DNA of 64,000 nucleotides from Streptomyces ferrugineus (GTDB lineage Bacteria > Actinomycetota > Actinomycetes > Streptomycetales > Streptomycetaceae), in NCBI RefSeq assembly GCF_015160855.1, contig NZ_CP063373.1, positions 8,221,001-8,285,000 on the forward strand, read 5' to 3'. The notes beneath the pieces were generated by a model. That model saw only the letters and a program-made list of their open reading frames with translations, did not search any database and was not told the origin of the DNA. Positions 6,719-64,000 of this stretch are shown piece after piece (position 1 is the stretch's first letter; each line of letters begins with the position of its first letter). Position numbers and translations under genes: made by a program.

Positions 6719-6729
6719 TCCGGAAAAGG

Positions 6730-45332: not shown

Positions 45333-45388
45333 CGGGCCTGACAGTTCGTCAGACATGCCGCTGACCAGGGAAAACGTGTGATAATCCG

Positions 45389-45435
45389 ACGGCCTCCGGA
45401 GCCGTGTGCGCAGGTTCGAATCCTGCCGGGGGCAC
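45389..45435 (+). other. attR: right 47-bp core direct repeat
   Basis: Identical to 6672-6718: the 3' part of tRNA-Arg from the anticodon stem through the T-arm and acceptor plus one base. No 5' tRNA half is present (preceding bases AATCCG do not continue the gene), so this is not a tRNA gene but the distal scar of integration. Confidence 0.92.
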
Positions 45436-45847: not shown

Positions 45848-46168
45848 ATGAGCAGGTACGCAGCCGCGAGGATCTACGCCCTCCCGGAGTCGCTCGACGA
45901 GATGGTCGGGCCGACTTCCGGCACCGTGACCCTGCCCCGGCACATCGACTGGGGCCCGCACTACGAGTACGACCTCGCCGACCAGGCCGACCTGCTCCTT
46001 ATGTACGAACGGGTCATCCGGGAAGCCCAGACCGCAGCCGACCTGCGGGCGCACTTGGACGGCGATCTGCTGCGTCGGCACTGGACGGACCTGTTCCTGC
46101 CCGCTCCGGCCCGTGCGGCCTGGCAGGCCCGCTTCCCCGAGCTCGCACCTGCGGCGGCCGCAGCGTAG
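45848..46168 (+). CDS. Small protein upstream of AbiEii-like gene (possible antitoxin)
   Basis: 106 residues: MSRYAAARIYALPESLDEMV, TVTLPRHIDWGPHYEYDLAD and QADLLLMYERVIREAQTAAD. It is paired with the downstream nucleotidyltransferase gene by a TAGTG overlap, so stop and start share one base. The order suggests the antitoxin or accessory half of an AbiE-like pair, but no winged-helix AbiEi motif is visible. Assignment rests on linkage only. Confidence 0.75.
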   Translation: MSRYAAARIYALPESLDEMVGPTSGTVTLPRHIDWGPHYEYDLADQADLLLMYERVIREAQTAADLRAHLDGDLLRRHWTDLFLPAPARAAWQARFPELAPAAAAA

Positions 46169-46842
46169 TGGACGAGCTGCACCGCCGACTGATCCGCATC
46201 GGGCTCGACGCACTCGCCGACGACTTCGGCTACGCCTTGGCAGGCGGCTACGCCGTCCAAGCCCACCAGATCGTCAACCGGGTCAGTGACGACGTCGACC
46301 TCTTTGCTCCCATCAACCGGGCCACCACCGAGATGCCCGAAGCCACCGAACGCGTCATCGCCGCCTACGAAGCCGCAGGCTTCACCGTGGAACTGGCCCA
46401 CCAGAACTCCGAGCACACCTACACCCGACTGAACGTCACCGACCCCGTCAGCGGTACGCAGAACAAGGTGGAACTCGTCGCCGAGTTCCTCAACCACCCG
46501 CCCGTGCCCTCCGAACTCGGCCCAGTCCTGCACCCCGACGACGTCGCCGCCGGGAAGACCACCGCCCTGGACGGCCGGGCCGAGGTCCGCGACGCCATCG
46601 ACGTCGACGGCCTCCTCAAGGCCGGATACACCCGCGAACGCCTGATGGAACTGGCCAAGCAGAACGACGGCGGCTTCGATCCGCGGATGTTCGCCGACTC
46701 ACTCGCCCGCGTCCAGCGCTACACGGACAAGCAATTCGCCGCCTACGGCCTTTCCGCCACCGAGGCCGGGGCCTTGCGCGAGCGGTTCGCGGACTGGCAA
46801 CGCCAGCTCACGGCATCGCAGAACGAGAACCCGGCCCAGTAA
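46168..46842 (+). CDS. AbiEii/AbiGii-type nucleotidyltransferase toxin
   Basis: 224 residues from GTG 46168. LAGGYAVQAHQIVNRVSDDV followed by DLF is the nucleotidyltransferase motif GG...(R)x(S/T)xDxD of AbiEii/DUF1814-like toxins; VELVAEFLNHPP and VLHPDDVAAGKTTALDGRAE RDAIDVDG match the later family motifs. It would transfer nucleotides to a host RNA or other target during phage infection. Sits between attR and the second integrase. Confidence 0.83.
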   Translation: MDELHRRLIRIGLDALADDFGYALAGGYAVQAHQIVNRVSDDVDLFAPINRATTEMPEATERVIAAYEAAGFTVELAHQNSEHTYTRLNVTDPVSGTQNKVELVAEFLNHPPVPSELGPVLHPDDVAAGKTTALDGRAEVRDAIDVDGLLKAGYTRERLMELAKQNDGGFDPRMFADSLARVQRYTDKQFAAYGLSATEAGALRERFADWQRQLTASQNENPAQ

Positions 46843-46883: not shown

Positions 46884-48248
46884 TCAGTCGTATTCGTCCA
46901 GTAGAGCCTCGATGCGCTGGTTGGCGATCGTGGCCCGGCCGTACAGGCACTTGGCGTACTTGGTCATGAGGACCTCGACACTGTTGCCGGCGCGTTCCGC
47001 GACCTCCGTGGGATCAACGCCCGCGTTGAGCCAGGTGGACAAGGCCGAGTGCCGCAGGTCGTAGGGGCGAGCCGCGAGTGGAGTGCTCAGCAGGCCGGGC
47101 GGCAGGGCCAGCTCCCGGGCTTCGTGCCAGACGCGGTCATACGTGCTGGAGGCGAGGATGCCACCGCGTTCGTTGAAGAACAGCCGCCCGTCATCGGCGG
47201 TACCGAAGGTGAGGACACTTTCTCGCCACTGCGCCACCAGCTCAGGCGGCAGCGGCACCGGGCGGGTGTCCCCCAGCGGACGCCCCTTCAGGCCACACTC
47301 GTCATGGAGACGCCCGGTGTCGGTCCACTTCTTGCCCGCCTGAGGGCGAGTGATGTGCAGAATCGCCCTGCCCCAGCCCTCCGCTGGCAATACGCAGTCC
47401 GGCAGGGTCACGGCGACCGCCTCCTCGGGCCTCAGCCCGGCGTAATACATGCCGGCGAACAGCCCGACCAGCCGACGCCCGCGGGCCCGCCGGTGGCTGC
47501 CGACGTAGGAGACGGCGCAGAGCAGGGAGCGGGCCTGGGCGGGGTTGGCGACCACCCGCGGGTCGACCTGTTTGACAGTCTTGGCGATCCGCCAACTGAC
47601 ATTGGCGATCGGATCCCCGCGGAGCATGCCCTGCTCGATCGCGTACCGCACGGCGTTCACGAGGGTCATGCGCTGGTGCCGCTGGGTCTCGGCCGCCGCG
47701 ACTGTACCGTCCTGTTTCAGCCGTAGGGCTTGCAGCACGGCCCGCATCACGGCCGGATCCATCAGGTCGGTCAGCGGGCGTGACGCCCTCTCGGCCCAGC
47801 GCAGAGCAAGCCGCACGTCCGAGGGCGCCGTCCGCTGCTCCGGCCGGGGCACGACAAACGCCCAGTTTCGAAGCGCCTGCCGCAGCAGCTCGTCACTCGG
47901 GCGGCCTCGCACATCCCGGAGCATCGCCAGGGTGATCGCGCACAGTGCATCATTGGTTTCGTTGCGTGTCTTCGCAGCAACCTGCGGCCAACGCATCACC
48001 AGGTATTCCAACGCGAAGGTGTACCAGCTGATGCTGCCCGAGCCGTGGCCCGTCCCTACCGTGGCCAGCGAATCATCCGCGTTCAGCCGGACCGCTCGGA
48101 CCAACGCAGCACCAAGTTCCTCGGCCAGCGCATTGCCATCCGTCGCGCCTGCCGTGGAGCGACTCCTGCCAGACCTAGCCCCGATCACCGTCCTGCCACG
48201 ACGTCTGCTTCTGGGGACGCCGCGTGTATGCGATGCAGAACTCCTCAT
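46884..48248 (-). CDS. int: Second tyrosine integrase
   Basis: 454 residues from ATG 48248 (a GTG at 48260 is also possible). The same architecture and motifs as the first integrase: AGLRPEEAVAVTLPD, RPYDLRHSALSTWLNAGVDP and RAGNSVEVLMTKYAKCLYGR. The two align along their whole length with many substitutions, so they are relatives rather than recent duplicates. It lies 1.4 kb to the right of the core repeat, so it may belong to a second element in the same tRNA site whose far end lies outside the window or is lost. Confidence 0.92.
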   Translation of the reverse strand: MRSSASHTRGVPRSRRRGRTVIGARSGRSRSTAGATDGNALAEELGAALVRAVRLNADDSLATVGTGHGSGSISWYTFALEYLVMRWPQVAAKTRNETNDALCAITLAMLRDVRGRPSDELLRQALRNWAFVVPRPEQRTAPSDVRLALRWAERASRPLTDLMDPAVMRAVLQALRLKQDGTVAAAETQRHQRMTLVNAVRYAIEQGMLRGDPIANVSWRIAKTVKQVDPRVVANPAQARSLLCAVSYVGSHRRARGRRLVGLFAGMYYAGLRPEEAVAVTLPDCVLPAEGWGRAILHITRPQAGKKWTDTGRLHDECGLKGRPLGDTRPVPLPPELVAQWRESVLTFGTADDGRLFFNERGGILASSTYDRVWHEARELALPPGLLSTPLAARPYDLRHSALSTWLNAGVDPTEVAERAGNSVEVLMTKYAKCLYGRATIANQRIEALLDEYD

Positions 48249-48297
48249 GACGACCACCACCTTTCCGATGAGGTAAACGCAGAAGAGCCCGGAGACA

Positions 48298-48875: not shown

Positions 48876-51800
48876 ATGGGCGCATCCAGCAGCAGGAGAA
48901 CGTCAACCGCTGCCGCCCCCTTGATCCAACTCGTCGCCACACACCCTCGAGGCATCACCGCCGACGATCTGATAGCAACGGCTCAAGACCGCTTCAAGCG
49001 TGTGCCGCCCCAGCGCCTGACGATGCTTCTTGACCAGGCTCTGTCCACAGGCCAGTTGTACGAGCGGGATGGTCTGCTGTTCACCAGAGAGGGCGAAGGT
49101 CGCCAAGAACCGGAATCCCAGAGCGAAAATCCCGACGCTCGGCGCTGCGCGCGTGGCGTCGCCATTGACGTCGAGACCGTGGTACGCACAACTGCCACGC
49201 CCCCGTACGTGGACCGCCGCATCTTCCAAATCGGTGCCGTACGAACGGGAACGGATGCCGCCTGGGTTGCGGAGCAACCGCGGCTACAGGTTTTTCTGTC
49301 CCTGCCCAGCGATGACTGGGCCATCCACGCTGAGAGGCTCCGGGAGCAGCATCAGGCCCATGCCTTGGACCCCCGCACAGCGCTGGAGCGCATCCATGAG
49401 TTCTGCGCCCATCAGGACGTACTAGTCGCGCATAACGGCACCGCAGCGGACTTCCCTCTTCTCGACGAAGCCTGCGCACGCGAGGGGTTGTCCCCGCTTC
49501 CCGGACACCGCGTGGACTCCCTCTACTTGGCACACTGCCTGTGGCCTCTCGCCGCCAGCCATCGGCTCGCGCCGCTCTGTGATGCCTCTGGGGTCGACCG
49601 TTCGGACCTTCGGTGGCACGACGCGGCAGATGACGCGGAGTTGTTGGTGCGGCTTCTGTCCCGATGCGCCAGCGAGCTCGCCTCATGGCCTATGAACCTG
49701 CGCGCACTCGTCGCTGCCGCATGCCCTGATTCCCCCGCATGGAACCTGCTCCACGACCTTGCCCGCGGGAGTGCAGGCCCACCAGAGGCAGTCGATATCG
49801 ACATCGCCTGGGACCGGCCGACGGTCTCGGCCTCACTTACCAGTTGGCTCAAGAACCACGCACCACGTCGCAGTGGACCACCCGCCGCCGCACCCGGCCG
49901 CAGACCACTCTCCGTTCCTGAGCGGCTGTGCTCTGACGGCCGAGTCGATCCCGGAGAACTGGCCAAGTTGGTCCATGGCGGCGCAGCCCGTCCGCGACCT
50001 GCGCAGCAGCAGATGACCGCGGGCCTGCATGCTTGGGCCGACGCTGGCATCTCCGCTCTCGTGGAGGCACCGACCGGTACGGGTAAGAGCTTCGCCGTGC
50101 TGGCCGCCGCGATGGACTGGCTCGGCGGCAGGGAGGCTCGTAGCGTTGTCATAGCCACGTACACCAAGCAGTTGCAGAGCCAGATCGCTCGGGACGTCGA
50201 CACTCTCAGCCGTGCCATGCCCGGCCTGCTGCAGGCCACGGACCTGGTGAAAGGCAAGGCGAACCGGCTCTCCCTGCGCGCCTTGACAGCTGCTCTGTCC
50301 GACGCCACCGCCCTCGGTGCGGACGCTGGCTCCCGTGCCCGCTCACGGTTCGTCGAGCGCCCAAGGTTCCGGGAACTGGGAATCCTCCTCCTTTTGCGGC
50401 TGATCGCGGCTCCGTCTGCCCCCGATGCGTGGACTGCCCGTTCGGTGGACCCTGTCGACGTGCCCGCCTTCCTCGACGAATATTGCGGCCCGGTCCTGTC
50501 CCTCTGGCTTCAGTCGCTCTCACAAACTGGCGGGGACTACGCGGCCACGGCGGCCACACCGTTGGCGGCGCACACGAACAGCGTGCGCGAGGCGATCGCC
50601 TCCCATCGGCTGATCCTGGCCAATCACGCGGTGCTCCTGGCCCATCTGGAGGATCTCCGGGCCCTCCCCGGCGAGACGATGCTGATCGTCGACGAAGCCC
50701 ACCTGCTTGAGGACGCCGCCACTTCGGCCTTGACCTCTTCTCTGGACTACGGTGCGGTAGAGCAGCTTGCCGCGTCCGTCCGTACCTGGCTGAAGGAGGC
50801 GATATCGGGGCCGGCCCGGGATCGGGTGGCGGATGCTGTCGCGGAACTGGAAACGCTCCTCGACCACGAGTCCCTCCCCCAGGCTGCCAGCCGTGCGTTC
50901 GACGCGCTGGGTGGGCAGGACGCATCCGTTATCGGCTCACGCTCAGTCACCCTGGCCAGTCCCTACGGTGGGGGAACGGGACTCGGACAGGTCCGGACAC
51001 TGACCGTGCTGATCCGTCGGCTCTCCTCGATAACCCTCCGGCTGGAGCGGGCACTGGCCGCCTTCGCGCAGGCTCACGCTCCCGCACTCGACTTCTTCTC
51101 GTTGGACGCACTCTCCGCTACGCAGAACCAGGTGTCCGAGCTGCGTGAGACGGCCGACGAGCTGCTGGCGGACGCGCAAGACATTCTAGGCGCGCTCCCC
51201 CGGGAAGGCTCCACGGTCGGCCGTGCCCAGCTGTCCGGTGAACCCGCGGCACCCGTCGAAGAAGAGGAAGATCAGGAAGAGGAACCCGAGGGCGAAACCG
51301 AAGCGGGTGACACGGCGGACGACGTGTCACCATCCGATGACGCTCCTGATGCCCAAGTCAGCCTGCTTCCGCCACCGCTACCCAACCGGATCGTCTACGC
51401 CGAAGAGCTCGCCATCCCCCTCGCTGGGCTGCGCCACTATCGGTTCCGCATTTCCTCCAGTCCCGTGGAACTGCCTGGTGACGCCCGGTGGAGGCGGTTC
51501 CTGAGCTCGTTCCCTCGCACGTACTACGTGTCCGCGACACTGCGCGTCGCTGGCGACTGGGACTTCATCATGGGGCGCCTGGGGCTGGCCGGACTCGCGA
51601 CCATGTGCGTGGACACCCCTTTCGACCTGCGCCGTCAGGCAGAGCTGGTTTGTTTCTCAGACTTTCCGTCCTGGGTGGAACAGCAGGAAGGAGCCATGCG
51701 GACCGTGGCTCACCAACTCGGTGGATACGCCACGGAGCTGGTGCGCCCCGCCGCCGGCGGCCGGGGGATGGACGGTGGCGCACTGGTCCTGACCACGGCG

Positions 51801-54800
51801 CGGTCGACGGCAGCCGGGATCGCGGAGTTCCTGACAGACGAGCTACGTCGGCGCGGTGACTCCACGCATGTGGTCAACGCACTGGCGCTGGGCAACTCCC
51901 GCGCATTCGAGCAATTCACCGAACCCGGCAGCGGGGGCGGATTCCTGGTCGGCACCAAGGGCCTGTGGCAGGGCGTGGACGTCTCGGATGAGCACCGCCT
52001 ACGGCTCGTCTGGATCAACAAGCTGCCCTTCGCGCCCTTCGCGGCACCGCTGGTGGAGGCCCGGCGCGCTGCCGTGCGCGCGCGGGCGGAAGCCGCAGGT
52101 CGGGAGGACCCGGACGCCCATGCGACGGAGCACTACTACATCCCGCTTGCGGCCCTGCAGTTACGCCAGGCCGTAGGGCGTCTGATTCGCTCTGAACGGC
52201 ATCGGGGCGTGGTCGTGATCAGCGACCGGAAGCTGGCCGGGCACACGGCCTTGCGCCGCGCCTATCGCCGGGCCTTCCTGGGGAGCCTGGAGCAGGGACT
52301 GCTCCGCACCGACCCGCGCACCGGGGAGCAAGGCGCCGCCAACGTCGTAACCATGGCTGAGGGATGGGGCCGGATCTGGTCGTTCTTCGCTCGGCACAGC
52401 CTGCTGTCTCCTCAGCGAGCGAATGAGCTGTCCGAGCCCGAGGCCCTGCAGCGGCATACCCTGCTGCCGCAGACCCTCCGGATCAGACAGCTCGAGCTGT
52501 CGGCTGAAGATGTCCAGAAACTCGTGGCCGACGCTCAACTCGAAGAGGAGGTCCTCCGACGCGCTTCAGAAGTGGCCGGGCTGCTCCGCCTTATGGACGA
52601 TCCGAGCAAGTTCCGGCTCAAGCCCGCCCAGCGGGCCGTCATCGAGGCAGTGGCGCAGGGGCGCAACGTTCTCGGCCTGCTCCCGACCGGATACGGCAAG
52701 AGCTTCACCTTCCAGCTCCCTGCCCTGGTGCTGCCGGGCGTGACCCTCGTTGTCAGCCCCCTCGTGGCGCTGATGCAGGATCAAGCACTGGAGCTCAACC
52801 GATCGATCGGCGGTGCGGTTCGGGCACTGATCGCACCGCTGCGCGAGTCGAGCAGCAGAGCGGGCAAAACGGAGGTCGCGGACCAGCTGCTGGGGCGGGC
52901 GAGCCACGGGATCAAGATCGTGTACGTCAGTCCGGAAAGGCTCTGTCAGCGCCGGTTCCGAGAACTGATACGAGCCGCAGCGGCGGCGGGCGCCCTCAAC
53001 CGTGTCGTGCTGGACGAAGCGCACACGATGGTCCAGTGGGACGACTTCCGGCCCAGCATGCAGCGGGTGGAGCAGTTCCTCCGACAGCTACGGCGCTCGT
53101 ACGCAATTCCGGTGACCGCTTTGACCGCCACCGCCAACCACGCCGTGCATACCGGTCTGCGGACAGGAGTCTTCGAAGTACCAGAGGATCCCCCGCCTTC
53201 GGACAGCGAGGCCGCTCGCCAGGAAGCCGCGCGGCCGGTGGACGATGGCGGCCTGGTGACCGTACGTGAGAACCCCATTCGCCCGGAGCTCGCGGTGTTC
53301 CGGCGCTCCCTCAACCAGTCGAGCCCCGCCGTGGTGGCCGGTCTCGCCCGGCACGTCTTGGAAGCGCTGACGGGGCACGCGGTGTTCTACTGCCTCACCG
53401 TCAAGGAAGTGGTCGCACTCCACGCCTACCTCCAGGAGTACGTCGGTGACCTGGGAGTCCGGGTGCGCCGCTTCCACGGCAGGCTGACGCAGGCCGAGAA
53501 GTCGGCGGTCATGACGGAGTTCCGTGAAGCCCCGCGCCTGGGTGAGGAGGGTTTCGCTCCCTTGGTCGTCGTGGCGACCTCTGCCTTCGGGCTGGGCATC
53601 GACCGCGATGATGTGCGCACCGTGTTCTGCGTATCGGCTCCGACGGACCTGGCCTCGCTCTACCAGCAGTTGGGGCGGGCCGGCCGTGATGTCGCGGGGA
53701 GTGGTAAGTCCGCCGAGCCCGGGGCTCCCACCAACACCGCCCTGGCGTTGCTGACCTCCAGAGGGCTGCGCACGGTCGCCTTCATGACTGGGCAGGACCT
53801 GCGCCCTGAGCTGGTCAGGCGCATGGGGCGGGCGGTGTTGGCCTGCGACGGGGTGATGGACGCCCGAGACATCGCCGACCGCCTGATCGGCGAGGATGTG
53901 CGATCGGGGCGGATCAGCGACCAAGAAGCGCGTTCGGCACGCGTAGCGGACACCTATGTGGCCGGTGTGATGCGGGCGTTCAGTCAGTTGGCCCGACTGG
54001 GCGCAGTCACCGACCACGGCGACTTTCCACCTTTGTGCAGGGTACGGCGCGGCGAGTTGCTCCCTGAGAACGATGAGGAGTCAGTCGTTCTCGAGGTCCT
54101 CGGGGTGGTGAACGGCCTCCCACAGTCGCGGCAGTCAGCACAGGGCCTGGCCAGGGCACGGCTCGACGTGGCATCGCTGGATGGTCTGCTGGCAGGCCGA
54201 GTTTCCGGATACCGAGAGCTGGTGGAAGGTCCCGCGAGCACCTGGCAGTTGCTCAGTGACCTGCACGACCGGGGACTGCTGGACGTCTCAGCCGCGCCAA
54301 GCCGTCACTGGGTCAGCGGAGTCGACGTCCGCCGCGCCGAGCTGCCGACAGGCTTTCTAACGGCCATGTCCGGAAAGGCCAGGCGAGCAGCCGCAGAAAT
54401 CGCCCGCCTGCGCGACTTCTTCGACGATTCGGCCACCTGCGCGCACCGTAAGTTCGCCGACTACTTCGGCGTGACCGAGTTACCCGAAACCTGCTGTACC
54501 ACTGAGGCGAACCGCTGCGGCGCGTGCTGGGGCAGGCCGGACTGGCCGCCGGGCGAGACCATGCCGGCATCAGCAAGGGCCCTGCTCACGCCTCGGCCTC
54601 GGCCGATCGACAGCGGCACCCAGCCGGAATCACGGCTGCGGCGCCTGGACGAACAGGTGTATCGACTGATCTGGGCACTACCACGGGGAGTGCACGCACG
54701 AAGTGTCTGGCGAGCGCTGCGCGGCGAGGACAGCTCGTACTCACCGAAGCTCGGCCGGCGTGTACGGCTCCCCCAGGGGCTCGTCGGCAGCCGGTATTTC

Positions 54801-54953
54801 GGAGCGCACGCGGACGTTCCGTTGCGCGCCGTGGAAGAGAGCGTCGAACGACTGGCGCAGGCCGGGCGTGTGACGCCGTCGGAGGGATGGTGGCGCGTGG
54901 TGCCGCCCGGTGGCACGGGTTCTCCGACGGCGCGGAAGGGGGGAACCGTATGA
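48876..54953 (+). CDS. Exonuclease-DinG-RecQ triple fusion helicase
   Basis: 2,025 residues, ATG 48876 with GAGGATGG before it. In order: winged-helix-like N-terminus (10-70); DnaQ-type 3'-5' exonuclease with D98-x-E100, H186-N187...D192 and H248-D249...D253; a DinG/XPD-like helicase (Walker A EAPTGTGKS, K404; DEAH 606-609; QAVGRLIRSERHRG near 1098) lacking the four Fe-S cysteines; an acidic linker (EEEEDQEEEPEGE) lying inside that helicase region; a complete RecQ-like helicase (LPTGYGKS, K1275; DEAH 1380-1383; QQLGRAGRD near 1597); and a C-terminal zinc-binding Cys cluster (C1855; CC...CGAC). Coupled by ATGA to the next gene. Predicted to unwind and degrade DNA. Confidence 0.88.
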   Translation: MGASSSRRTSTAAAPLIQLVATHPRGITADDLIATAQDRFKRVPPQRLTMLLDQALSTGQLYERDGLLFTREGEGRQEPESQSENPDARRCARGVAIDVETVVRTTATPPYVDRRIFQIGAVRTGTDAAWVAEQPRLQVFLSLPSDDWAIHAERLREQHQAHALDPRTALERIHEFCAHQDVLVAHNGTAADFPLLDEACAREGLSPLPGHRVDSLYLAHCLWPLAASHRLAPLCDASGVDRSDLRWHDAADDAELLVRLLSRCASELASWPMNLRALVAAACPDSPAWNLLHDLARGSAGPPEAVDIDIAWDRPTVSASLTSWLKNHAPRRSGPPAAAPGRRPLSVPERLCSDGRVDPGELAKLVHGGAARPRPAQQQMTAGLHAWADAGISALVEAPTGTGKSFAVLAAAMDWLGGREARSVVIATYTKQLQSQIARDVDTLSRAMPGLLQATDLVKGKANRLSLRALTAALSDATALGADAGSRARSRFVERPRFRELGILLLLRLIAAPSAPDAWTARSVDPVDVPAFLDEYCGPVLSLWLQSLSQTGGDYAATAATPLAAHTNSVREAIASHRLILANHAVLLAHLEDLRALPGETMLIVDEAHLLEDAATSALTSSLDYGAVEQLAASVRTWLKEAISGPARDRVADAVAELETLLDHESLPQAASRAFDALGGQDASVIGSRSVTLASPYGGGTGLGQVRTLTVLIRRLSSITLRLERALAAFAQAHAPALDFFSLDALSATQNQVSELRETADELLADAQDILGALPREGSTVGRAQLSGEPAAPVEEEEDQEEEPEGETEAGDTADDVSPSDDAPDAQVSLLPPPLPNRIVYAEELAIPLAGLRHYRFRISSSPVELPGDARWRRFLSSFPRTYYVSATLRVAGDWDFIMGRLGLAGLATMCVDTPFDLRRQAELVCFSDFPSWVEQQEGAMRTVAHQLGGYATELVRPAAGGRGMDGGALVLTTARSTAAGIAEFLTDELRRRGDSTHVVNALALGNSRAFEQFTEPGSGGGFLVGTKGLWQGVDVSDEHRLRLVWINKLPFAPFAAPLVEARRAAVRARAEAAGREDPDAHATEHYYIPLAALQLRQAVGRLIRSERHRGVVVISDRKLAGHTALRRAYRRAFLGSLEQGLLRTDPRTGEQGAANVVTMAEGWGRIWSFFARHSLLSPQRANELSEPEALQRHTLLPQTLRIRQLELSAEDVQKLVADAQLEEEVLRRASEVAGLLRLMDDPSKFRLKPAQRAVIEAVAQGRNVLGLLPTGYGKSFTFQLPALVLPGVTLVVSPLVALMQDQALELNRSIGGAVRALIAPLRESSSRAGKTEVADQLLGRASHGIKIVYVSPERLCQRRFRELIRAAAAAGALNRVVLDEAHTMVQWDDFRPSMQRVEQFLRQLRRSYAIPVTALTATANHAVHTGLRTGVFEVPEDPPPSDSEAARQEAARPVDDGGLVTVRENPIRPELAVFRRSLNQSSPAVVAGLARHVLEALTGHAVFYCLTVKEVVALHAYLQEYVGDLGVRVRRFHGRLTQAEKSAVMTEFREAPRLGEEGFAPLVVVATSAFGLGIDRDDVRTVFCVSAPTDLASLYQQLGRAGRDVAGSGKSAEPGAPTNTALALLTSRGLRTVAFMTGQDLRPELVRRMGRAVLACDGVMDARDIADRLIGEDVRSGRISDQEARSARVADTYVAGVMRAFSQLARLGAVTDHGDFPPLCRVRRGELLPENDEESVVLEVLGVVNGLPQSRQSAQGLARARLDVASLDGLLAGRVSGYRELVEGPASTWQLLSDLHDRGLLDVSAAPSRHWVSGVDVRRAELPTGFLTAMSGKARRAAAEIARLRDFFDDSATCAHRKFADYFGVTELPETCCTTEANRCGACWGRPDWPPGETMPASARALLTPRPRPIDSGTQPESRLRRLDEQVYRLIWALPRGVHARSVWRALRGEDSSYSPKLGRRVRLPQGLVGSRYFGAHADVPLRAVEESVERLAQAGRVTPSEGWWRVVPPGGTGSPTARKGGTV

Positions 54954-57430
54954 CGAGTACGTTGCAGGGTGCCGAACGTGTATGGCGGCCGTACGACGAC
55001 GATCCGCTGATCACACGAGACATGATCAACGGCCTGGATGCCTGCGAACCGGCGGCGCGGGAAGCGCTGCTGGCCCATCTGGCCGCGGTCATCGCCCGCC
55101 GTACGACCCCGGTGCACACGGCTGTGGCCTTCAACACCGTCTACTTCGGTTATGACGTGGAGGCTGGCGGCTACGTCGGGGGCCCCCTGGACTTCGAGGA
55201 TTTTCCATCAGTCGCCCTCGGTGACACGGTGGAGGCTCTGCCGGTCGGCGCAATGATCAACATTCGTACGGGCGGTGACCTGCTGCCCGCGGAGATCGTC
55301 TACAAGGAGGGCGCCCACGCCGACCTCGACCCGTACGGCGAGACTCCGGCCTGGGTGTCCGGAGCGCCAGCTGGGGCCCGGGGCCCCGGTCTCCTCGCTC
55401 CCGACGAGACCTCCGTGCTGCGTGAGCGGCTGGTCTTCGACACCTCCGCCTTCGGGCAGGACCTTGCACCAACGAGGGAACGTCTTCAGCGGCTACGCCG
55501 TCGGCGACGTACTGACGACTTCGGACACCTCGTCGTGGAAGCCCAGTACGAGTGGGCGGACGCGGACCTGAGCGACGCCGAATATTACGCCCGCTATCTG
55601 GTCACGCGAGGCCGGGATCAGATCACCAGCGCCTTGGTACCAACGCCGTTGCCGACGCTGCTGGCGCCAGGAGTCGGGGGCGCCGAGTTGCTGGCGGCGG
55701 TGAGAGGGCTAATGAGCACCTTGCGCCAGGCTCTGGCGGAGCTCAACGCAGCGAGGATGTGGGGGGATTACGCCTTCACTCGGGCTTCGTTGGCCCGGCG
55801 GCTGGCGGACCCCGGGCCACTGGGGCGCAACGACCTGGCCCGGCTGGCCGATTCGACGGTGCGCCATGCGATACCTCGGGCCGGGCGCCGGACCGGGGTC
55901 CTGCGGCCCAGGCCGGCTTACACCGCGCTCGGCCCCGCGCTGCGCTCACACCAGGAGTGGCAGGATCAGCTCCACGGCACGGCCTATCCACTGGCTGTCT
56001 GCCACGCCAACTCCGTAGTGTCCGACTGTGCGCGGCGTGAGCAGGACGAGACGACAGGGCTACTTCCGACCGGCGTCCGGCTGAGCCTGGACGACCGATG
56101 GCAGGGAGGAGGTGTCTGGCGGGCCGAGTTCGTGGAGAGCGGCACAGATGTCGCGCCCTCGCCCGACGCTGTGGACAAGCCCGCTGGCCTGGGCTGGGCG
56201 GACAGCCTCCCGCACCAGCCTGGCCATCAGGCTCCACCACCCCCCATGCCCACGACACCGCCGCATCCCGAGTCGCAGAGTGGCCACCATGACCACCCCA
56301 GCGCCCTGCCCTTCCCAGACACCGCTGTGGATGCTCCTCCGGCCACGTCCCCTGGAGCGCTCCCGGCCATAGAGCGGACACCGGTTGGTGGGGAGGAAGC
56401 GGCACATCCGCCGCTGTGGCCAGAGGACAGCGACCTCGGCCACCACATCGACCTGGCGGCGAACGACAGCCAGATCGAGTGGGCTCAACCGCTGCGGCTG
56501 TTCCACGTGCTCCAGGAATGTCTGCCGCTCCCCGACCATGTCGCCGCCGAACTTCTCTCGCCCGGTGCTCCGCAGGGATGCGTCAGAGTAGTCCTCCACC
56601 ACACAGGCCGTGATTTGCCGACCGACCAGTCGTGCCATGACGCGTACGTCACGGTGGACCGACAGGGAACACGGCTCAACGGCATCGAGTGGCCGCTAGA
56701 CCTGTTCCCCGGTATATGGCTGACGTTCACCTGGCAGCGGGGGAGCAGAGTAATCCACGCGCGGACCACCCTTCTGCTACAGCCAGTGACCGTCGACGGT
56801 GAGCTGATTGAGCACCGTTACGACCCGAGAGTCCTCACCCGCGACGGATCGAACGGCCTATACGCCGGGACGGAACCTGCCGGTGAGATCCTTCCGGCGC
56901 ATCAGGCCATGACCACGGTCCAGCTTCTGACCACGATCCGCAGACTGGGACTTCTGGACCGGTACGGCTGTGCGCTGCTTGCCAGGACGGATCTGCCAGC
57001 GGCCGTCCGCGCCATCACAGGCGAAGACGGCATCAAGGCCACCGGAATCGAGGCAGCCCTTGCCGAGCTGCTCAGTTCCGCACGGCTCACAATCGCCTGG
57101 GGCAGCCGTGGTGTGGACGACACCACGCACCATCCGCCTCAGCCAGGCGAGCCGACCGTGGAGCTCGTCTGCTACCGGCCGCATTGCGTCGATGCTCCGG
57201 GCGCTACGCCGGCCGGGGAAACGAACGACGTCGCAATGGCTTCCACAGGCCGGGCGGTACGCGAGCACAACGTAGCCGGGTTCCTGCGCCGGATCGGGCA
57301 CCTCAAGAAAGAGGCCACCCCAGAGCAACGCGCCCTGTACCGCGAGGACCACCGAAGGTTCCGGCTAAGCGGCCCCGCCGAGTTGCCGGACGGATTCACC
57401 TACGTACGCCCACACAAACGGAGCAGATGA
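54950..57430 (+). CDS. Unknown 826-residue protein in the helicase operon
   Basis: ATG 54950 overlaps the helicase stop and its own stop overlaps the next start; both are ATGA. A first globular region (1-400) is followed by a Pro/His/Ser-rich linker (HQAPPPPMPTTPPHPESQSG) and a second region (about 490-826) containing HHTGRDLPTDQSCHDAYVTV and WPLDLFPGIWLTFTWQRGSR. It ends GFLRRIGHLKKEATPEQRAL ... LPDGFTYVRPHKRSR, a basic tail. No enzyme motif, transmembrane segment or known domain is recognised. Linkage implies a structural or DNA-binding part of the system. Confidence 0.8.
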   Translation: MTSTLQGAERVWRPYDDDPLITRDMINGLDACEPAAREALLAHLAAVIARRTTPVHTAVAFNTVYFGYDVEAGGYVGGPLDFEDFPSVALGDTVEALPVGAMINIRTGGDLLPAEIVYKEGAHADLDPYGETPAWVSGAPAGARGPGLLAPDETSVLRERLVFDTSAFGQDLAPTRERLQRLRRRRRTDDFGHLVVEAQYEWADADLSDAEYYARYLVTRGRDQITSALVPTPLPTLLAPGVGGAELLAAVRGLMSTLRQALAELNAARMWGDYAFTRASLARRLADPGPLGRNDLARLADSTVRHAIPRAGRRTGVLRPRPAYTALGPALRSHQEWQDQLHGTAYPLAVCHANSVVSDCARREQDETTGLLPTGVRLSLDDRWQGGGVWRAEFVESGTDVAPSPDAVDKPAGLGWADSLPHQPGHQAPPPPMPTTPPHPESQSGHHDHPSALPFPDTAVDAPPATSPGALPAIERTPVGGEEAAHPPLWPEDSDLGHHIDLAANDSQIEWAQPLRLFHVLQECLPLPDHVAAELLSPGAPQGCVRVVLHHTGRDLPTDQSCHDAYVTVDRQGTRLNGIEWPLDLFPGIWLTFTWQRGSRVIHARTTLLLQPVTVDGELIEHRYDPRVLTRDGSNGLYAGTEPAGEILPAHQAMTTVQLLTTIRRLGLLDRYGCALLARTDLPAAVRAITGEDGIKATGIEAALAELLSSARLTIAWGSRGVDDTTHHPPQPGEPTVELVCYRPHCVDAPGATPAGETNDVAMASTGRAVREHNVAGFLRRIGHLKKEATPEQRALYREDHRRFRLSGPAELPDGFTYVRPHKRSR

Positions 57431-60400
57431 CTCCGCATTCCCGTGATCTACCCGCACGACCCGTATCAGCCGTTGGAGCCCGTATGAGCCATCCTCGCCC
57501 ATCCCACGCCGTACCCGGCGGGGAGAGCGACACCCCTTACCCTGTCGACCTCGGCACCCGCGACCGGCAGGAGGTGCCTGCCGAATTACTCGCGGCCCTG
57601 GAGGATCTATCGGCCGCGCTCACCCAGTCCCTGGACACGCGCCCGTCCCCGACGGCTGATGCCCTTCTGCGCCTCAGCGAGGCAGACATCGAGTACGCGC
57701 TCAACTCGACGCGCGTATCGTGGCGGCGCCATCTGCTCCACACGCTCCGCATTCCCATGGACGGGACCAAGGTCAACCGTGCCCTGTGCCACGACGTCCT
57801 GACACGCATCCGGCGCGACCCGGAAGCGCCCCGCGCCCGTCAGGCGGCCTGGCATCTAAGCCTTCCCGTCCTCGACGACCTGGCGCAGGCCGGCCGACAG
57901 AACGCCGCAGGCCCGTCCGATGACGGCCTTGATCCGCTCACTCACCGATGGACCCCAGCCCTGCTGCAGTTGACTGTCTGGTCGCACCTCAAGGCGAGCG
58001 CTGAGCATGCTCCCCTGTGGGCCTGGGCTCTGGACCAGCCGTGGCTGGCGGAAACGGACGTCCCGGTCCAGGCGGTGCGGGAAGCCGCACACCGGGTCGT
58101 GGAGCTGACTCAGCAAGCCCCCGCTACGCCCGAAGACAACACGATCACCAGCCACGAGACGACCGCTGCCATCAACGTCACTGCTGCGGATGCATCGGCC
58201 GCCCTCCCCGCCGGCCCCCCGGACGCGGACCAGTTGAAAGCCGCGCTGGCACGCATCGATGATGCGCTGAACGCTGCGGCCGAACCGGCCCGCCGTATAG
58301 CGGAGAACGTTGCCGCCCAAGCCCGACCGTCCACCGACGATCTGAACGTGCTGTCCGGGGTGACCGAGGCGTTCGACTCCGCCGCGCGGTGTCTGAAGGC
58401 ACACGGAGTGACACCTGCCGTGGCCGACCTATCCCACTTCCGGCAGGCGACCGACACAGCACTGAGCCGGTTGTCCACCGGGCACATGCGCCGCCGGCTC
58501 GCCAAGGTGGCACAGCTGGAATGCGCCTCGGGTGACCCGGCGCTCGCTCAGGACCTGGAAACTGCCCGTGATCGGGCAGGCGCCCTGGTGGGGGCCAACG
58601 ACTGGGACGCCACAGACCAAGTGGACGCCGAGGCCCTCGACGCGCTCCTGACGATGGTCGAGCGACACGCGGCGGACCATGCCCCTAACGACGTCCTCGC
58701 ACTGCTACCCACGGCCGTGAAAGGCCGCTGTGCAGCATATCCAGCTGGGCGCTACAGCGAACTCCGGCTTGGATCAGCCGACCAGGAGGCTGCCGCGCCG
58801 TGTCCCCCTGAGGCCAACTCCACGCCATCCGCACCAGTCACGGCACCCCGTCCAGCCTCATCAGCCACGCAGGAAGCCTTCCCTGCCCCGTCCACGACGG
58901 GGCACACCGCGGCGCAACAGGGGCCTGCGACCCCAGACAACAGCGACCGCCATGCCACGGAGCCCCGTGACACAGGCTCCGCTGAGGCGCTCCCCGCCGT
59001 CCCCAGCCCTCGGACATCGGCACCCGAGCACCGGACCGCCAGCCCGAGTAAGACGCACCCCTCCTCGACCACGAACGCCCCCGAGAGCAGTACATCTCCC
59101 GTCGCACCGCCGAAAGATTCCGCAGTGCACAAGTCCCAGGCCGAGCAGTCGGAGATCCGCAACTCTCTGGCGGAGTTCATCTCGGCTGAGCGCTACGGTC
59201 TTGCCGCCGCCCTCGCCGCCCGTCTCGGCGAGCCACCGCAAAGGACCACCGCGCTACAACTCGCTGCCTGCACGGATGCCGTGCACTCAGCCAGCAGCGA
59301 AAGCCTTACCAAGATGCGCGCCCTTCTCGCGGATCACACCATCGACGAGTTGACGGGGGATCGTCCCGCCGCAGCGCTCACCACAGCGGCACTGCTGCGC
59401 ACTGTCCTGGTGACGGGTGATCCGGAAGTAGGCGCCTCCCTGAGCCGAGTAGCGAATGGCGTGCCACCGAGCCTTGCGCGTGTAGCAGATGAGGTGGCCC
59501 AGCGAGCCCTGAAGTCGCTACTCCTGCACTCCCCGTCTCTGACCCTGGCCCGCGATCGAGCGGAACTCGAAAGGGCCGTGGAGGACGCCTGTGACGAGTG
59601 CCGGCGGAGCCTCGAGCAGGTGCCCACCATCCGGTTCCCACGCGGGCAGAAGATCGCCCACAACTGGTGGGACTCCGAAAGAGGGCTTATCGGTTCGCTG
59701 CTGCGACAGGCGGCGAACAACAACCGGAATGGGCTCGACACGCTCGCGCAAAGGGTTCGAGAACTACGCGACCCCTCAGTCCTGCAATCCACGCTGGACA
59801 AGGCAGACCGGGACTTCATGGCACCCGGAGCCCGAACGCGGCTTGAGGGATCGTCGCGCCAGGACCTATTGCGCCACGCCACAAAGAGCATCACCTTCGT
59901 TGACCGGTGGCTCCGACAAACCCAACAGCTCACTGCACAGGACACGGACTGGAGCGCCGACCAAGTGCAGGAGATGCGCACCGTGGTTCTGAGGCTCCGC
60001 GAGGACGTCCTGCGTGAGGTGGGGGAACAAGCGGTGACGGCCGATGTGCTCACGGCTGCCGCCCTGGATGCCACGGTCGCCTCCCTCTCCACGACCTTCG
60101 CCCTGCTGGCGGGGGAAATGCGACTCGACGAAACCGAGTTGCCCGCGGAACTCGCCTTGCGATCTGAGCTTCTCAAGGTTCCCGGCGCTGTGATCGGCGA
60201 AGCTGGCACCGTTCAACCGCCTGCCGAGGCATCCGTCCGCGAGTTGGTGAAAGCGGGCGGCCGTTCCTGGGAGGAGGCAGTGCAGGCCCAGGTGTCCAGC
60301 GATGTATTCACCACAGCGCACAAGATCCTCGATCTATGGGCCAACCAGCAGCTTCCACTTCTGCCTCCGCAGAGCGTGCCTCCCGAGGAATTGTGCGCCC

Positions 60401-61104
60401 ACGTGGCGGAAGCCGGTCGGAGGGTCGCCCAGGAGCTGCGTGACATGCGGGAGCGGCTTGAGGAGACGCTGCGTCACGCCCGGGTTGACGGCGCGCTCAA
60501 CGAGGAGCAGGAGCGCCTGTTCGAGCGTCGCCTGCGGGACGCCGAGCCGCGGCCCGACGGTGATCTCGCCCATGTGCGCCGGACTCTGGTGGCCCTCTCC
60601 GAGGAACTGAACCGGGCCCGAGCGGGCCACGCCGCCAAGTTGCGCACCAGGCTCGGTGGCATCAACGGGCTGTCCCCCGAGGACCAGGGCCGCGTTGAGC
60701 AGCTGATCGATGCCAGTGATTTGCTCACTGCCCACGAGCTGATCTCCCACTTGGTGAACGGTGAGAGCATCCCCGACATCCAGTCGTCCGACCGCAACTT
60801 CGCCGCCTTCTTCCCCGATGTCCCGAAGGCCATGGCCGACACGGGAGTCTGCGGCGCGCTGATCGATGCCGTCCGTCAGCGGACGCGCTACCTGGGGTTG
60901 AAAGCGCTCGACTATTCCTCTCTGTCTCCGGAGATCGCGGAGCAAACCGCGCAGGCGCTCGAAGGCTGGGCGAACCTCGCATCTCGCAAGGGCCGGGAAC
61001 GCACCCACAGCGTTCGTGAAAGCGAGCTATTGAGCTTCTTCGAGTTGGCCTCCGATCAGGCGACCGCCGACGAAGCGCAACGAGCGAGGCCCCCGAGCTG
61101 TTGA
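57427..61104 (+). CDS. Large ATPase gene, 5' fragment (interrupted by IS)
   Basis: 1,225 codons from ATG 57427 (ATGA overlap; ATG 57484 is an alternative). The native part ends at 61031, where the insertion begins; the final 25 residues (SFFELASDQATADEAQRARP...) are encoded by the IS. Mostly helical, with likely coiled-coil stretches around residues 770-1000 and a Pro/Ser/Thr-rich linker near 450-570 (APVTAPRPASSATQEAF). The remaining ORF after 61908 carries the P-loop. With the IS removed the two parts join in frame (...RESELL-MPALRLIGYSS). Confidence 0.8.
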   Translation: MTPHSRDLPARPVSAVGARMSHPRPSHAVPGGESDTPYPVDLGTRDRQEVPAELLAALEDLSAALTQSLDTRPSPTADALLRLSEADIEYALNSTRVSWRRHLLHTLRIPMDGTKVNRALCHDVLTRIRRDPEAPRARQAAWHLSLPVLDDLAQAGRQNAAGPSDDGLDPLTHRWTPALLQLTVWSHLKASAEHAPLWAWALDQPWLAETDVPVQAVREAAHRVVELTQQAPATPEDNTITSHETTAAINVTAADASAALPAGPPDADQLKAALARIDDALNAAAEPARRIAENVAAQARPSTDDLNVLSGVTEAFDSAARCLKAHGVTPAVADLSHFRQATDTALSRLSTGHMRRRLAKVAQLECASGDPALAQDLETARDRAGALVGANDWDATDQVDAEALDALLTMVERHAADHAPNDVLALLPTAVKGRCAAYPAGRYSELRLGSADQEAAAPCPPEANSTPSAPVTAPRPASSATQEAFPAPSTTGHTAAQQGPATPDNSDRHATEPRDTGSAEALPAVPSPRTSAPEHRTASPSKTHPSSTTNAPESSTSPVAPPKDSAVHKSQAEQSEIRNSLAEFISAERYGLAAALAARLGEPPQRTTALQLAACTDAVHSASSESLTKMRALLADHTIDELTGDRPAAALTTAALLRTVLVTGDPEVGASLSRVANGVPPSLARVADEVAQRALKSLLLHSPSLTLARDRAELERAVEDACDECRRSLEQVPTIRFPRGQKIAHNWWDSERGLIGSLLRQAANNNRNGLDTLAQRVRELRDPSVLQSTLDKADRDFMAPGARTRLEGSSRQDLLRHATKSITFVDRWLRQTQQLTAQDTDWSADQVQEMRTVVLRLREDVLREVGEQAVTADVLTAAALDATVASLSTTFALLAGEMRLDETELPAELALRSELLKVPGAVIGEAGTVQPPAEASVRELVKAGGRSWEEAVQAQVSSDVFTTAHKILDLWANQQLPLLPPQSVPPEELCAHVAEAGRRVAQELRDMRERLEETLRHARVDGALNEEQERLFERRLRDAEPRPDGDLAHVRRTLVALSEELNRARAGHAAKLRTRLGGINGLSPEDQGRVEQLIDASDLLTAHELISHLVNGESIPDIQSSDRNFAAFFPDVPKAMADTGVCGALIDAVRQRTRYLGLKALDYSSLSPEIAEQTAQALEGWANLASRKGRERTHSVRESELLSFFELASDQATADEAQRARPPSC

Positions 61105-61904
61105 TCGAGATGTCTGACGTCTCAACCACGCTGCTCGGGGGCCTCGTTGGTCATCTATCCTGCCGCACTCGACCTGCCCCATGCACTCGTGGAGTGGGTG
61201 ACCATGCTCGTCGTCACCCGTGAGGGCGACCGGCGATGCAAGCTCCGTCCGTCCCAGCGCGCGATGGTGGCACTGGTGTACCTGCGCGAACACACCACCC
61301 TGGCAAAGATCGCTGCCGGGTTCGGGATCAGCGAGTCCACCGCCCACGCCTACACCAGCTCGGTCATCCACCTGCTCGCCGAACGCGCACCGGGTCTGCT
61401 GAAAGTCCTGCGCGAGACCGATGCGGACTTCGTCCTGCTGGACGGCACGCTCGCCGAGTGCGACCGCGTCGGCGACGGACGAGCTGACTACTCCCACAAG
61501 CACCGCCGGCACGGAGTGAACGTGCAGGTGGTCACCGATCCGGGCGGTCGGCTGCTATGGCTCTCACCCGCACTGCCCGGCCGAGCCCACGACCTGACCG
61601 CTGCCCGCACCCACCGCATCATCCGCATCTGCGAGCGCCAAGGCGTCCCTGTCCTCGCCGACCTCGCCTACCAGGGCGGCGGCCCCTGGGTGACCACGGG
61701 CATCAAGCGCAGGCCACTGCGGGAACTCACTCTCACCGAGAAGACCATCAACCGGGCCCTGGCCGCGGCACGTGCACCGGTCGAACGCGGCGTCGCACGC
61801 CTCAAAGCCTGGCGCATCTTCCGCAGATCCCGATGCAGTCCGAACCGCATGACGTCAATCGCCAAAGCCATCCTCACCCTGGAGCGGCAACGCTGAAGAA
61901 GCTC
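61032..61904 (+). mobile_element. IS5-family (ISL2-like) insertion sequence, 873 bp
   Basis: Terminal inverted repeats GAGCTTCTTC (61032-61041) and GAAGAAGCTC (61895-61904). Target duplication ATT at 61029-61031 and 61905-61907; ISL2-group elements make 3-bp ANT duplications. Contains one transposase gene. IS plus one duplication is 876 bp (292 codons), so excision would restore the host frame exactly. Confidence 0.85.
61147..61896 (+). CDS. IS5-family transposase (DDE_Tnp_4 type)
   Basis: 249 residues, apparently from TTG 61147 ([20 protein letters not shown]), matching the usual N-terminus of this group; ATG 61204 is an alternative. N-terminal helix-turn-helix [20 protein letters not shown] then [18 protein letters not shown] residues in [12 protein letters not shown] (D1), [12 protein letters not shown] (D2) and [20 protein letters not shown] (E). 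Intact, so the IS may still be active. A 13-bp inverted repeat (61086-61098 / 61133-61145) ends one base before the start codon. Confidence 0.9.
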
Positions 61905-61908
61905 ATTG

Positions 61909-64000
61909 ATGCCCGCCCTTCGCCTGATTGGCTACAGCAGCAAGAAGCTCCCCCAACGGATCGACAGGCCCCGCTCCGTCAGTTACCGCTTCATCGACAT
62001 ACCCGCAATCGAGTACACCGGGTCGGCCCTGGTGCCGGCATTCGGCTCGGGGCTGCGCGGCAGCCTGCGTGTGATGCTGGTTTGGGACCGGCCATCGTCA
62101 GAGCGGCTCATGTCCTGGATTCAGCAGGATCTGAACGACGACAGCCTGCTCATCGCATACTTCGGCACGCTGCCGGTGCGTGACCGCGAAGTACTCGCGG
62201 CGCAGTGCGCGGGCGGACGGCGGGCCCTCGTGGTACTGGACGACTCGGCCCTGGCCCATCTGGCCGCCTGCGGCAACCAGCGTCTGGACTCTGCCATGCG
62301 CGTGCTACTCCCCTTCTCGGCGGTCAATCCGTACGTGATGGGCAAACGCGCTCCGGTGGCTGAGGAGATGTTCTACGGCCGTGACACGGAACTCGACGAG
62401 GTACTGAGCACCACAGGTGAGCAGGTCGTATTCGGTGGGCGTGGCCTCGGCAAGTCGGCCCTGCTGAAGGCCGCTGGGCGCAAATACGAAGCTCAGTTGC
62501 CTGGAGCGCGGCTCAGTCTGCTCATCTCCCTGGACTCGACGTTCACCGGCACAAACGCTCCGTCATCCGTCGTCTGGGACCGGATCGGCCGCCGTCTTCT
62601 GGAACGTGAAGAGTTCACGCCGTCTCGTAAGGTGAAATCAGGCTCCGCGCTCACCCGCGAGCATGTCCTAGCCGACATTCAGGCGTGGCTGCGCACGGAA
62701 CCGAAGCGGAGACTACTGATCATGCTCGACGAGGCGGACGGCTTCTTTGAGTCCGACTCACCCCAGTTCACCGAGACCAGGCTTCTGCGCGATCTAGGTG
62801 CCGATACGGATGACCGAGTGAAGGTGTTCTTCGCGGGCCTCCACTCCGTGCAGCGCTACGCGAAGATCGCCGAGAACAGCCCGTTCGGACATCTCTCTCA
62901 GAATCCCACTGTGATCGGTCCGCTGCCGCCGCAAGACGCGGTCGACCTGCTCACGAAGCCACTCCAGGCACTGGGGTACCGGTTCGAGGAACCCGCGCTG
63001 GTGCACCGCATCCTCGGCCACTGCTCGTACCAGCCGTTCCTGCTCCAGATGTTCGGACACCGTCTGGTGCAGACCATGCACGGCAAGCGGACTGGTATGG
63101 CGTCCGGTCCGCCGTACACCATCACCAGGGCCGATGTGGAGACGGTCCAGTCGGACAAAGACCTGCGGTTCAGCATCACTGAGGCTTTCCACGACACACT
63201 ACGGCTCGATCCCCGCTATAACGTGATCGCGAACGTGGTCGCGCACCATGCACACCACTACGGCTTGGACGCCCGGCTCAGCCAGGTGCAGTTGCGGGAA
63301 GAGTGCACGTACTGGTGGCACGAGGGTTTCGAAAACCTGGACACGGACCGGTTCCGCGCCTACCTGTCAGAAATGGAAGGGCTCGGCGTACTCGCGCCCG
63401 ACCCGGATCACCGGGGCTGGCACCTGCGCAGTGCCAATGCGCTCAGCATGATCGGGACTCTGGGAACGGTGGAGGCCGAACTGGCTCAGGCATCCAACCG
63501 GAAAGTGCCCGAACACTTCGACAGGTTCGAAGCGCGCCACCGCTCGCGTAACGGGCACTCGCACTCCCCTCTCACCGCCGATCAGATCGCGGACGTGCTG
63601 CCCGGACATGGCAACCAGGCACGCCTGGTCATCGGGACACCCGCGACCGGCGTCGACCGGGTTGCCGCGGCTCTCAAAGACGTCGCCCAGGCAACCGGCT
63701 GGGAAATGCCGCAGGTGACCAAACGCTTGGACTTCGATCGCCACCTCATGGATGGCGTCCCTGGCCGCAAGCGGGTCGTGGTGTCGGACCTCACGGAGAA
63801 GTGCCCCCGTGACAACGCCTGCCTGGAGACGATGGAGAGCGCAGTCAGCCGCATCCCCGACCGGGCCGGTGTCACTCGCTCCGCCGTGATCGTCGCAGGC
63901 CCCAACCAGCGGGCCTTGTGGTCGCTGGCCGCTGGCGGCGGACTCGAGGACGATGCCAAGATTGAGGTGCTCACCCTGCGGCGGTTCAGCTCAGACGGAC
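61909..64000 (+). CDS. Large ATPase gene, 3' fragment (runs off window)
   Basis: Open frame to the window end. It could be translated alone from ATG 61909, 13 bases after the transposase stop. In rejoined numbering it starts at residue 1203: YSSKKLPQRIDRPRSVSYRF, a preceding alpha/beta segment (LLIAYFGTLPVRD; RRALVVLDDSALAHLAACG), then FYGRDTELDEV, Walker A GGRGLGKSALL (about 1378-1388) and Walker B LLIMLDEADGFF (D1476-E1477), a STAND/Orc-type AAA ATPase. Further regions include QPFLLQMFGHRLVQTM and a winged-helix-like part. Function unknown. Confidence 0.82.
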   Translation, partial: MPALRLIGYSSKKLPQRIDRPRSVSYRFIDIPAIEYTGSALVPAFGSGLRGSLRVMLVWDRPSSERLMSWIQQDLNDDSLLIAYFGTLPVRDREVLAAQCAGGRRALVVLDDSALAHLAACGNQRLDSAMRVLLPFSAVNPYVMGKRAPVAEEMFYGRDTELDEVLSTTGEQVVFGGRGLGKSALLKAAGRKYEAQLPGARLSLLISLDSTFTGTNAPSSVVWDRIGRRLLEREEFTPSRKVKSGSALTREHVLADIQAWLRTEPKRRLLIMLDEADGFFESDSPQFTETRLLRDLGADTDDRVKVFFAGLHSVQRYAKIAENSPFGHLSQNPTVIGPLPPQDAVDLLTKPLQALGYRFEEPALVHRILGHCSYQPFLLQMFGHRLVQTMHGKRTGMASGPPYTITRADVETVQSDKDLRFSITEAFHDTLRLDPRYNVIANVVAHHAHHYGLDARLSQVQLREECTYWWHEGFENLDTDRFRAYLSEMEGLGVLAPDPDHRGWHLRSANALSMIGTLGTVEAELAQASNRKVPEHFDRFEARHRSRNGHSHSPLTADQIADVLPGHGNQARLVIGTPATGVDRVAAALKDVAQATGWEMPQVTKRLDFDRHLMDGVPGRKRVVVSDLTEKCPRDNACLETMESAVSRIPDRAGVTRSAVIVAGPNQRALWSLAAGGGLEDDAKIEVLTLRRFSSDG

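Follow-up and report, generated by a model that had tools for sequence, protein, structure and literature searches.

What does an operon do that encodes an exonuclease and two helicases in one chain beside a giant nucleoside triphosphatase (NTPase), on a mobile stretch of an actinomycete chromosome? We address this question for three overlapping genes, here called A, B and C, at the right-hand end of a 64,000-nucleotide stretch of Streptomyces ferrugineus DNA (the window; positions 8221001-8285000 of a 9.96-Mb single-contig genome). A sequence-only reading had taken them for a candidate undescribed system that senses and degrades foreign DNA, set in a defence island. That description holds in part: the three genes are real and their order recurs in other genomes, and the integrity of C, an Argonaute pair, an AbiE pair and adjoining integrases had to be corrected. 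We propose, giving the idea an even chance, that A-B-C is a modular mobile defence system, presumably anti-phage, in which C would switch upon sensing, B would tie C to DNA, and A would unwind and digest DNA from its ends.

The operon and its three products

The operon, and the insertion sequence (IS) that interrupts its last gene, are arranged as follows in window coordinates.

48876..54953, + strand: gene A, 2025 amino acids (aa); DEDDh exonuclease, DinG-type helicase, RecQ-type helicase
54950..57430, + strand: gene B, 826 aa; predicted B3-like barrel (residues 503-622) and winged helix (643-747)
57427..61031, + strand: gene C, 5' part upstream of the IS; N-terminal region without known domain
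61032..61904, + strand: 873-bp insertion sequence; DDE transposase at 61147-61896; ATT duplicated on either side
61905..64000, + strand: gene C, 3' part downstream of the IS; STAND NTPase; extends beyond the window to coordinate 64449

Both the A/B and the B/C junction read ATGA, so the two overlaps described earlier stand. The product of A is indeed a single chain with a DnaQ-like exonuclease and DinG-like and RecQ-like helicases, all three matched by Pfam: RNase_T/DEDDh at residues 95-260 (E 1.9e-10), a DinG-type helicase at residues ~370-1140 (Helicase_C_2, E 2e-23) and a RecQ-type helicase at residues ~1240-1610 (DEAD, E 2.9e-33; Helicase_C, E 3.8e-15). No endonuclease is recognised in it. 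All four full-length sequences (window, L022, L105 and L106) retain the exonuclease motifs, the two Walker A motifs and the DE.H motifs, and partial sequences that cover the RecQ motifs agree. The DinG part carries NRLSLR in all five sequences that cover the site; we take its serine to occupy the position of an iron-sulfur (FeS)-cluster cysteine. A scores well under the cut-offs of the equivalog models, reaching 183.9 bits against 547.7 for the DnaQ-DinG model TIGR01407 (dinG_rel) and 183.4 against 640.2 for the RecQ model TIGR01389, as well as 154.9 against 550 for DpdF of the Dpd system (NF041063). Its top PADLOC match is the type IV DinG model (223.6 bits), and its nearest sequences in the PDB are RecQ family chains, WRN included.

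B, described earlier as a protein of 826 residues with no recognised domain, matches no family at E<=1 in Pfam, PADLOC or NCBIfam. A B3-like barrel and a winged helix are suggested by its structural model, so B is probably a DNA-binding adaptor. When compared as profiles with PDB sequences, neither B nor the C-terminal part of C gave a credible match.

C is a giant STAND (NLR-like) NTPase. The part downstream of the IS, which holds the P-loop, matches nSTAND1 (PF20703) at E 1.3e-13 and 51.8 bits (cut-off 27.1), and the predicted fold of an intact relative, L023, resembles STAND/NLR chains, CED-4 among them. Foldseek rows that paired C with Avs3 or dynein over ~1000 columns were set aside as over-extended (root-mean-square deviation 26-35), and the absence of a fold from the structural-match lists carries no weight as evidence that it is lacking. 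The N-terminal part of C contains no Pfam domain above cut-off, PADLOC (PADLOC-DB 2023) returned no family at E<=1 for B or for either part of C, and neither B nor C showed an effector motif.

The sequence-only reading had treated C as one open gene. Its P-loop stands; its continuity does not. The 5' reading frame of C enters the IS and stops at 61104, the target-site duplication ATT lies at 61029-61031 and 61905-61907, and a frame of 847 codons stays open past the IS to window coordinate 64449 (L010:1906-4449). The insertion is recent, since three further copies in the genome show 0 mismatches, each with a 3-bp duplication of its own. A second copy of the C-terminal part of C was not found in the genome. 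Because C is split by the IS, the system is probably inactive in this strain; A and B remain open reading frames (ORFs). Third-position GC of the A, B and C frames (0.75-0.77, against often 0.85-0.95 in most genes left of ~38 kb) is in line with a foreign origin.

Recurrence of A-B-C and repeated change of A

Genome contigs were scanned with an alignment of the C-terminal part of C, and the best 80 of 84 loci were classified; the short patterns used favour near relatives. A-B-C is present at 19 of these loci, B-C without A at 37, and C with a beta-CASP partner at 11, with 13 unresolved; the count of labels omits 12 loci without a clear state and L078, whose C is broken, most of them being cut by a contig end or having a short C frame. 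At 19 of 80 loci the A-B-C order is not chance. It occurs in Streptomycetaceae, Streptosporangiaceae, Geodermatophilaceae, Pseudonocardiaceae and Micromonosporaceae, and in one unplaced actinomycete metagenome-assembled genome (MAG). The first possible start of B overlaps the stop of A by 4 bp in at least 7 of the 19, as in the window; this is a lower bound, since elsewhere the first possible start of B falls at other positions. Reading frames of C across the 19 span 1877-2129 codons from the first possible start.

Wherever A was found outside the window it was accompanied by B (20 loci: the 19 above and G029, where A lies directly upstream of B and the contig ends just past B). Both are rare: among genomes drawn at random from the phylum, B was found in 3 of 296 genomes and A in 2 of 198, our own genome included. 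Neither outcome that the sequence-only reading had set against itself appeared: A and B were not separated, and no named system or housekeeping operon was matched. The three genes thus co-occur across actinomycetes, as had been anticipated, without being an obligate trio, since 37 of the 80 loci carry B-C without A. Full A was found elsewhere in none of the ten B-C genomes searched, against both of the two A-B-C genomes searched alongside.

On an 82-row tree of C, from whose alignments L084 was removed, the A-B-C label needs 4 changes and the B-C label 3. A more careful tree of 45 of the 82 rows rejects a single B-C clade (approximately unbiased test, p 6.3e-77); because B-C loci do not form one clade, A has been gained or lost repeatedly. 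The trees do not separate gain from loss, and repeated loss in Streptomyces is favoured. For 19 sets, the correlation among pairwise distances in A (its last 800 residues), in B and in C is 0.96-0.97, as would be expected under joint inheritance; the alignment of B omits A3, L026 (B in two frames), L017, L020, L022 and near-copies.

B matches were also found on seven plasmid records. Of the five examined, three have C adjoining B (L015, L016 and L017) and two do not (L018 and L019); the first 1200 residues of A have no plasmid match at E<=1e-30. On the L016 plasmid (Streptomyces sp. AD2-2), B and C are fragmented into several frames, with a gene annotated Cas3'' upstream. On that of Streptomyces sp. 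NBC_01483 (L019:15001-26605), B lies in two pieces ~11 kb apart, as if split by an insertion, with no C in view.

A wider family of C with possibly exchangeable nuclease partners

Relatives of C reach well beyond the operon. In one clade, a relative of beta-CASP metallo-beta-lactamase follows C at 11 of 11 loci (by tblastn; two of the 11 were checked by Pfam). At L089:12547-14595 and ten related loci (Actinomadura, Planotetraspora and Spongiactinospora, mostly Actinomadura) a coiled-coil plus beta-CASP metallo-beta-lactamase protein stands directly behind the C relative. The idea that this partner is a distant B was rejected at an hhalign probability of ~0.1%.

C relatives also occur on 24 plasmid records from several phyla, nine of which were examined, L015-L017 included. 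On a Bradyrhizobium elkanii plasmid (L119:2173-11475) a pPIWI-RE RNaseH module (E 4.7e-25) and a giant STAND NTPase of the C type form one 3100-aa protein, and a PprDinG relative lies upstream of it (E 8e-11, a single comparison). On a Brasilonema plasmid a helicase with a PLD-type motif lies behind the C relative, and on a Methylocystis plasmid genes annotated PD-(D/E)XK and UvrD lie upstream of it and a helicase downstream. A small homologous protein follows C in five of the six plasmid records other than L015-L017 and in a Planctomycete MAG (L102). All six copies, which come from different phyla, carry near their end an R-(4)-H motif that we take to be HEPN-like.

L102:12546-13676: small R-(4)-H protein behind C
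L121:11592-12725: small R-(4)-H protein behind C
L122:11880-12473: small R-(4)-H protein behind C
L124:11511-12665: small R-(4)-H protein behind C
L119:11479-13128: small R-(4)-H protein behind C
L123:11556-13088: small R-(4)-H protein behind C

We tentatively suggest, at a little under an even chance, that C represents a broad and apparently undescribed class of giant STAND switches, a common activation platform that would plug into exchangeable nucleic-acid-destroying partners. These would be the DEDDh-DinG-RecQ chain (A, with B as adaptor), the beta-CASP nuclease, the pPIWI-RE fusion, the PLD-motif helicase, PD-(D/E)XK with UvrD, and the small HEPN-like R-(4)-H protein, and A-B-C would be the DNA-shredding form. 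By analogy, such a platform may be likened to the NLRs that serve varied responses in eukaryotes.

The mobile element and its surroundings

Repeats of tRNA-Arg enclose the 19.3-kb stretch that holds the operon. Apart from the operon, the genes recognised in it are one of AbiEii type and an integrase with a weak match.

45372..45435, + strand: repeat of the tRNA-Arg 3' end that bounds the 19.3-kb element on the left; 64 bp, sharing 89% identity with its right-hand counterpart, with an exact 30-bp core (0 expected by chance)
46168..46842, + strand: AbiEii-type nucleotidyltransferase carried with the operon (PF08843, E 3.1e-13)
46884..48260, - strand: tyrosine-integrase-like ORF of the element (PF00589, E 3.8e-4, 20.7 bits against a cut-off of 27.1)

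A tRNA-Arg gene sits at window 6646-6718, and the 3' end of tRNA-Arg(CCG) occurs four times in tandem order, at window 6670-6720, 45372-45435, ~64700-64763 (L010:4700-4763) and ~71928-71990 (L010:11928-11990). The four repeats suggest that a single attachment site has accumulated a stack of several integrative elements; many genes in the first stretch (6721-45435) look ordinary, so it may not be one element. Shortly upstream of the second repeat are a PIN-domain ORF (38041-38454) and an HNH_2 endonuclease ORF (39974-41314). Just right of the window, the next repeat-bounded stretch encodes a lone 1098-aa protein (L010:7720-11016, - strand) with SF1-type helicase (AAA_11, AAA_12) and PLD nuclease domains, possibly a single-gene defence factor.

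Several neighbours named earlier changed on inspection. The supposed Argonaute pair falls away: Pfam Piwi (PF02171) and pPIWI-RE (PF13032) have no match in the whole genome at E<=0.1, and two long ORFs of that area, 41401-42903 and 42872-44443, have no Pfam hit at E<=0.01. Of the AbiE-like pair the second gene stands and the preceding 122-aa ORF matches nothing in Pfam; the several integrases reduce to the one weak match listed above.

Defence-type surroundings as such are borne out, by the AbiEii gene here and by the neighbours of other A-B-C loci. These were scanned with PADLOC and Pfam for 84 of 109 ORFs, all from the flank behind C. Among the matches listed are JetA, JetB, JetC, Cas1, Cas3, Cas4, BrxHI, PprDinG and the pPIWI-RE endonuclease. 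Single hits were assigned to loci for 20 proteins, placing JetC at L041, PprDinG and PprPIWI at L052, Cas3 at L035 and BrxHI at L026, so that genes of Wadjet, CRISPR-Cas, BREX-like or pPIWI-RE type lie next to at least 4 of the 19 A-B-C loci. A pPIWI-RE set also lies upstream of B-C on the S. xanthophaeus plasmid (L017). Since control ORFs also give PADLOC hits, a neighbour hit counts for little unless it is joined by further genes of that system. PADLOC family counts were discarded as a gauge of defence enrichment: 62 families were hit by 84 control ORFs, drawn from 12 stretches of our own genome, against 112 by the 84 neighbour ORFs; the 25 control families listed include no Cas, Jet or Ppr model and are dominated by generic kinase-type models.

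Proposed mechanism and alternatives

In the mechanism that we propose, C would act as the switch, a STAND (NLR-like) NTPase that stays inactive as long as neither infection nor foreign DNA has been sensed, and B as the adaptor that couples DNA to C. Switching of C would recruit or release A, whose DinG (expected 5'-3') and RecQ (expected 3'-5') helicases would open DNA from an end or nick while the DEDDh domain digests 3' ends, so that the invader is degraded. Lacking a recognised endonuclease, A would depend on free ends, for instance those of linear phage genomes or of DNA cut by neighbouring systems. The defensive role that we infer here is drawn from context. The earlier interpretation is upheld on co-occurrence, on the lack of a PADLOC match for B and C, and on surroundings; it gives way on the obligate trio, the Argonaute neighbour and an intact C.

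Several observations weigh against the defence proposal. The B3 matches of B lie near background Z, and Foldseek by itself returned no significant match for this protein (best E 0.22). In L018, L019 and G204 the C-terminal part of B stands with neither A nor C nearby; in the last, only the final third of B matches and neither A nor C lies within 32 kb. ORC and TnsC, which are non-immune proteins, match the ATPase of C nearly as well. Among viral contigs, 98 stretches matched the search patterns and none encodes a C relative; phages gave no B match, and only the RecQ part of A, in four records. The many hits among control ORFs count on the same side, and the 37 loci without A imply that A is dispensable for whatever keeps B-C.

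That last point leads to the chief rival, which we consider unlikely overall: B-C alone would be the defence core, giving a STAND-driven response (an abortive one, for instance) by means of an unrecognised effector that lies either in B or within the N-terminal half of C; A would then be an accessory that widens or tunes this core. The persistence of B-C groups as large clades, the ten B-C genomes with no full A elsewhere and the lack of an assigned domain in the N-terminal half of C all fit such a core. Yet the inheritance of A is closely tied to that of B and C wherever it occurs, and a separate nuclease accompanies other C clades too, which points to external effectors. Nor was any effector motif found in either B or C.

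The operon could instead serve DNA repair or recombination, with A resecting or unwinding ends or crosslinks, as does the S. aureus exonuclease-DinG or WRN, and C acting as an ORC/TnsC-like loader. SaDinG combines exonuclease and DinG helicase activities and acts in crosslink repair (PMC12345164), RecQ chains including WRN are the PDB sequences closest to A, and the ORC and TnsC matches of C agree. We nevertheless regard this as improbable: the genes are patchily spread through the phylum, they sit on a mobile element and on plasmids, A and the nuclease partners are exchanged, and the scores of A fall well short of the NCBIfam cut-offs for equivalogs of RecQ and DinG. Patchiness, mobility and partner exchange likewise weaken a role, in our view slightly less probable still, in attacking or excluding competing integrative elements and plasmids or stabilising the operon's own element, with phages secondary; its place at the end of one of several stacked repeat-bounded stretches and its several plasmid copies would suit this, but of 21 A-B-C-type loci scanned just 2 have tRNA genes in view, and the stacked elements show that others were not kept out of this site. 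Our proposal and these rivals overlap, and the likelihoods given to them need not sum to one.

Relation to known systems

The exonuclease-DinG SaDinG (TIGR01407) shares with A a 3'-5' exonuclease and a DinG helicase in a single chain; A differs in its added RecQ module, its low score against that family and its operon with B and C. CasDinG of type IV CRISPR-Cas lacks three of the four FeS-cluster cysteines (PMC10450177); A, too, lacks FeS cysteines, and the type IV DinG model is its best PADLOC match. Unlike CasDinG, A carries exonuclease and RecQ modules, and no CRISPR-Cas gene was recognised among the genes tested at this locus.

The pPIWI-RE system (restriction endonuclease, DinG helicase and pPIWI-RE) is likewise a mobile operon with a DinG-family helicase (PMC3702460); it adjoins A-B-C in L052 and B-C in L017, and one C relative is fused to pPIWI-RE itself. 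Unlike it, our genome has no PF13032 match, no restriction-endonuclease gene is recognised in the operon, and the nuclease of A is DEDDh. Avs and other bacterial STAND/NLR-like defence proteins share with C the STAND NTPase switch, NLR and CED-4 chains matching its model. Avs-type proteins carry an effector domain at the N-terminus of the same chain; the N-terminal part of C has no Pfam domain above cut-off. C, unlike Avs, has no PADLOC family at E<=1, has its nuclease-helicase on a separate chain, and places the NTPase in the C-terminal part of ~2000 aa. A works-like parallel to B-C is the ATP-dependent restriction of CglI/NgoAVII, in which B3 domains read DNA and are thought to trigger a partner ATPase (PMC4267653).

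The earlier view that no named system has this composition holds within what was searched: B and C lack PADLOC-DB 2023 matches, and no DinG-RecQ fusion or comparable operon appeared in titles and abstracts of the open-access literature searched, a scope outside which most subscription papers and preprints lie. STAND-based defence with nucleases is already known; the A-B-C composition and the wider C family appear to be undescribed within these databases and this literature.

If our reading is correct, bacterial NLR-like switches would be interchangeable platforms for separate nuclease-helicase machines, and one chain would unite an exonuclease with two helicases of opposite expected polarity. 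Since nature provides sister lineages that have A and others that lack it, its role can be tested directly, and the C relative fused to pPIWI-RE is a starting point for learning how pPIWI-RE systems are activated.

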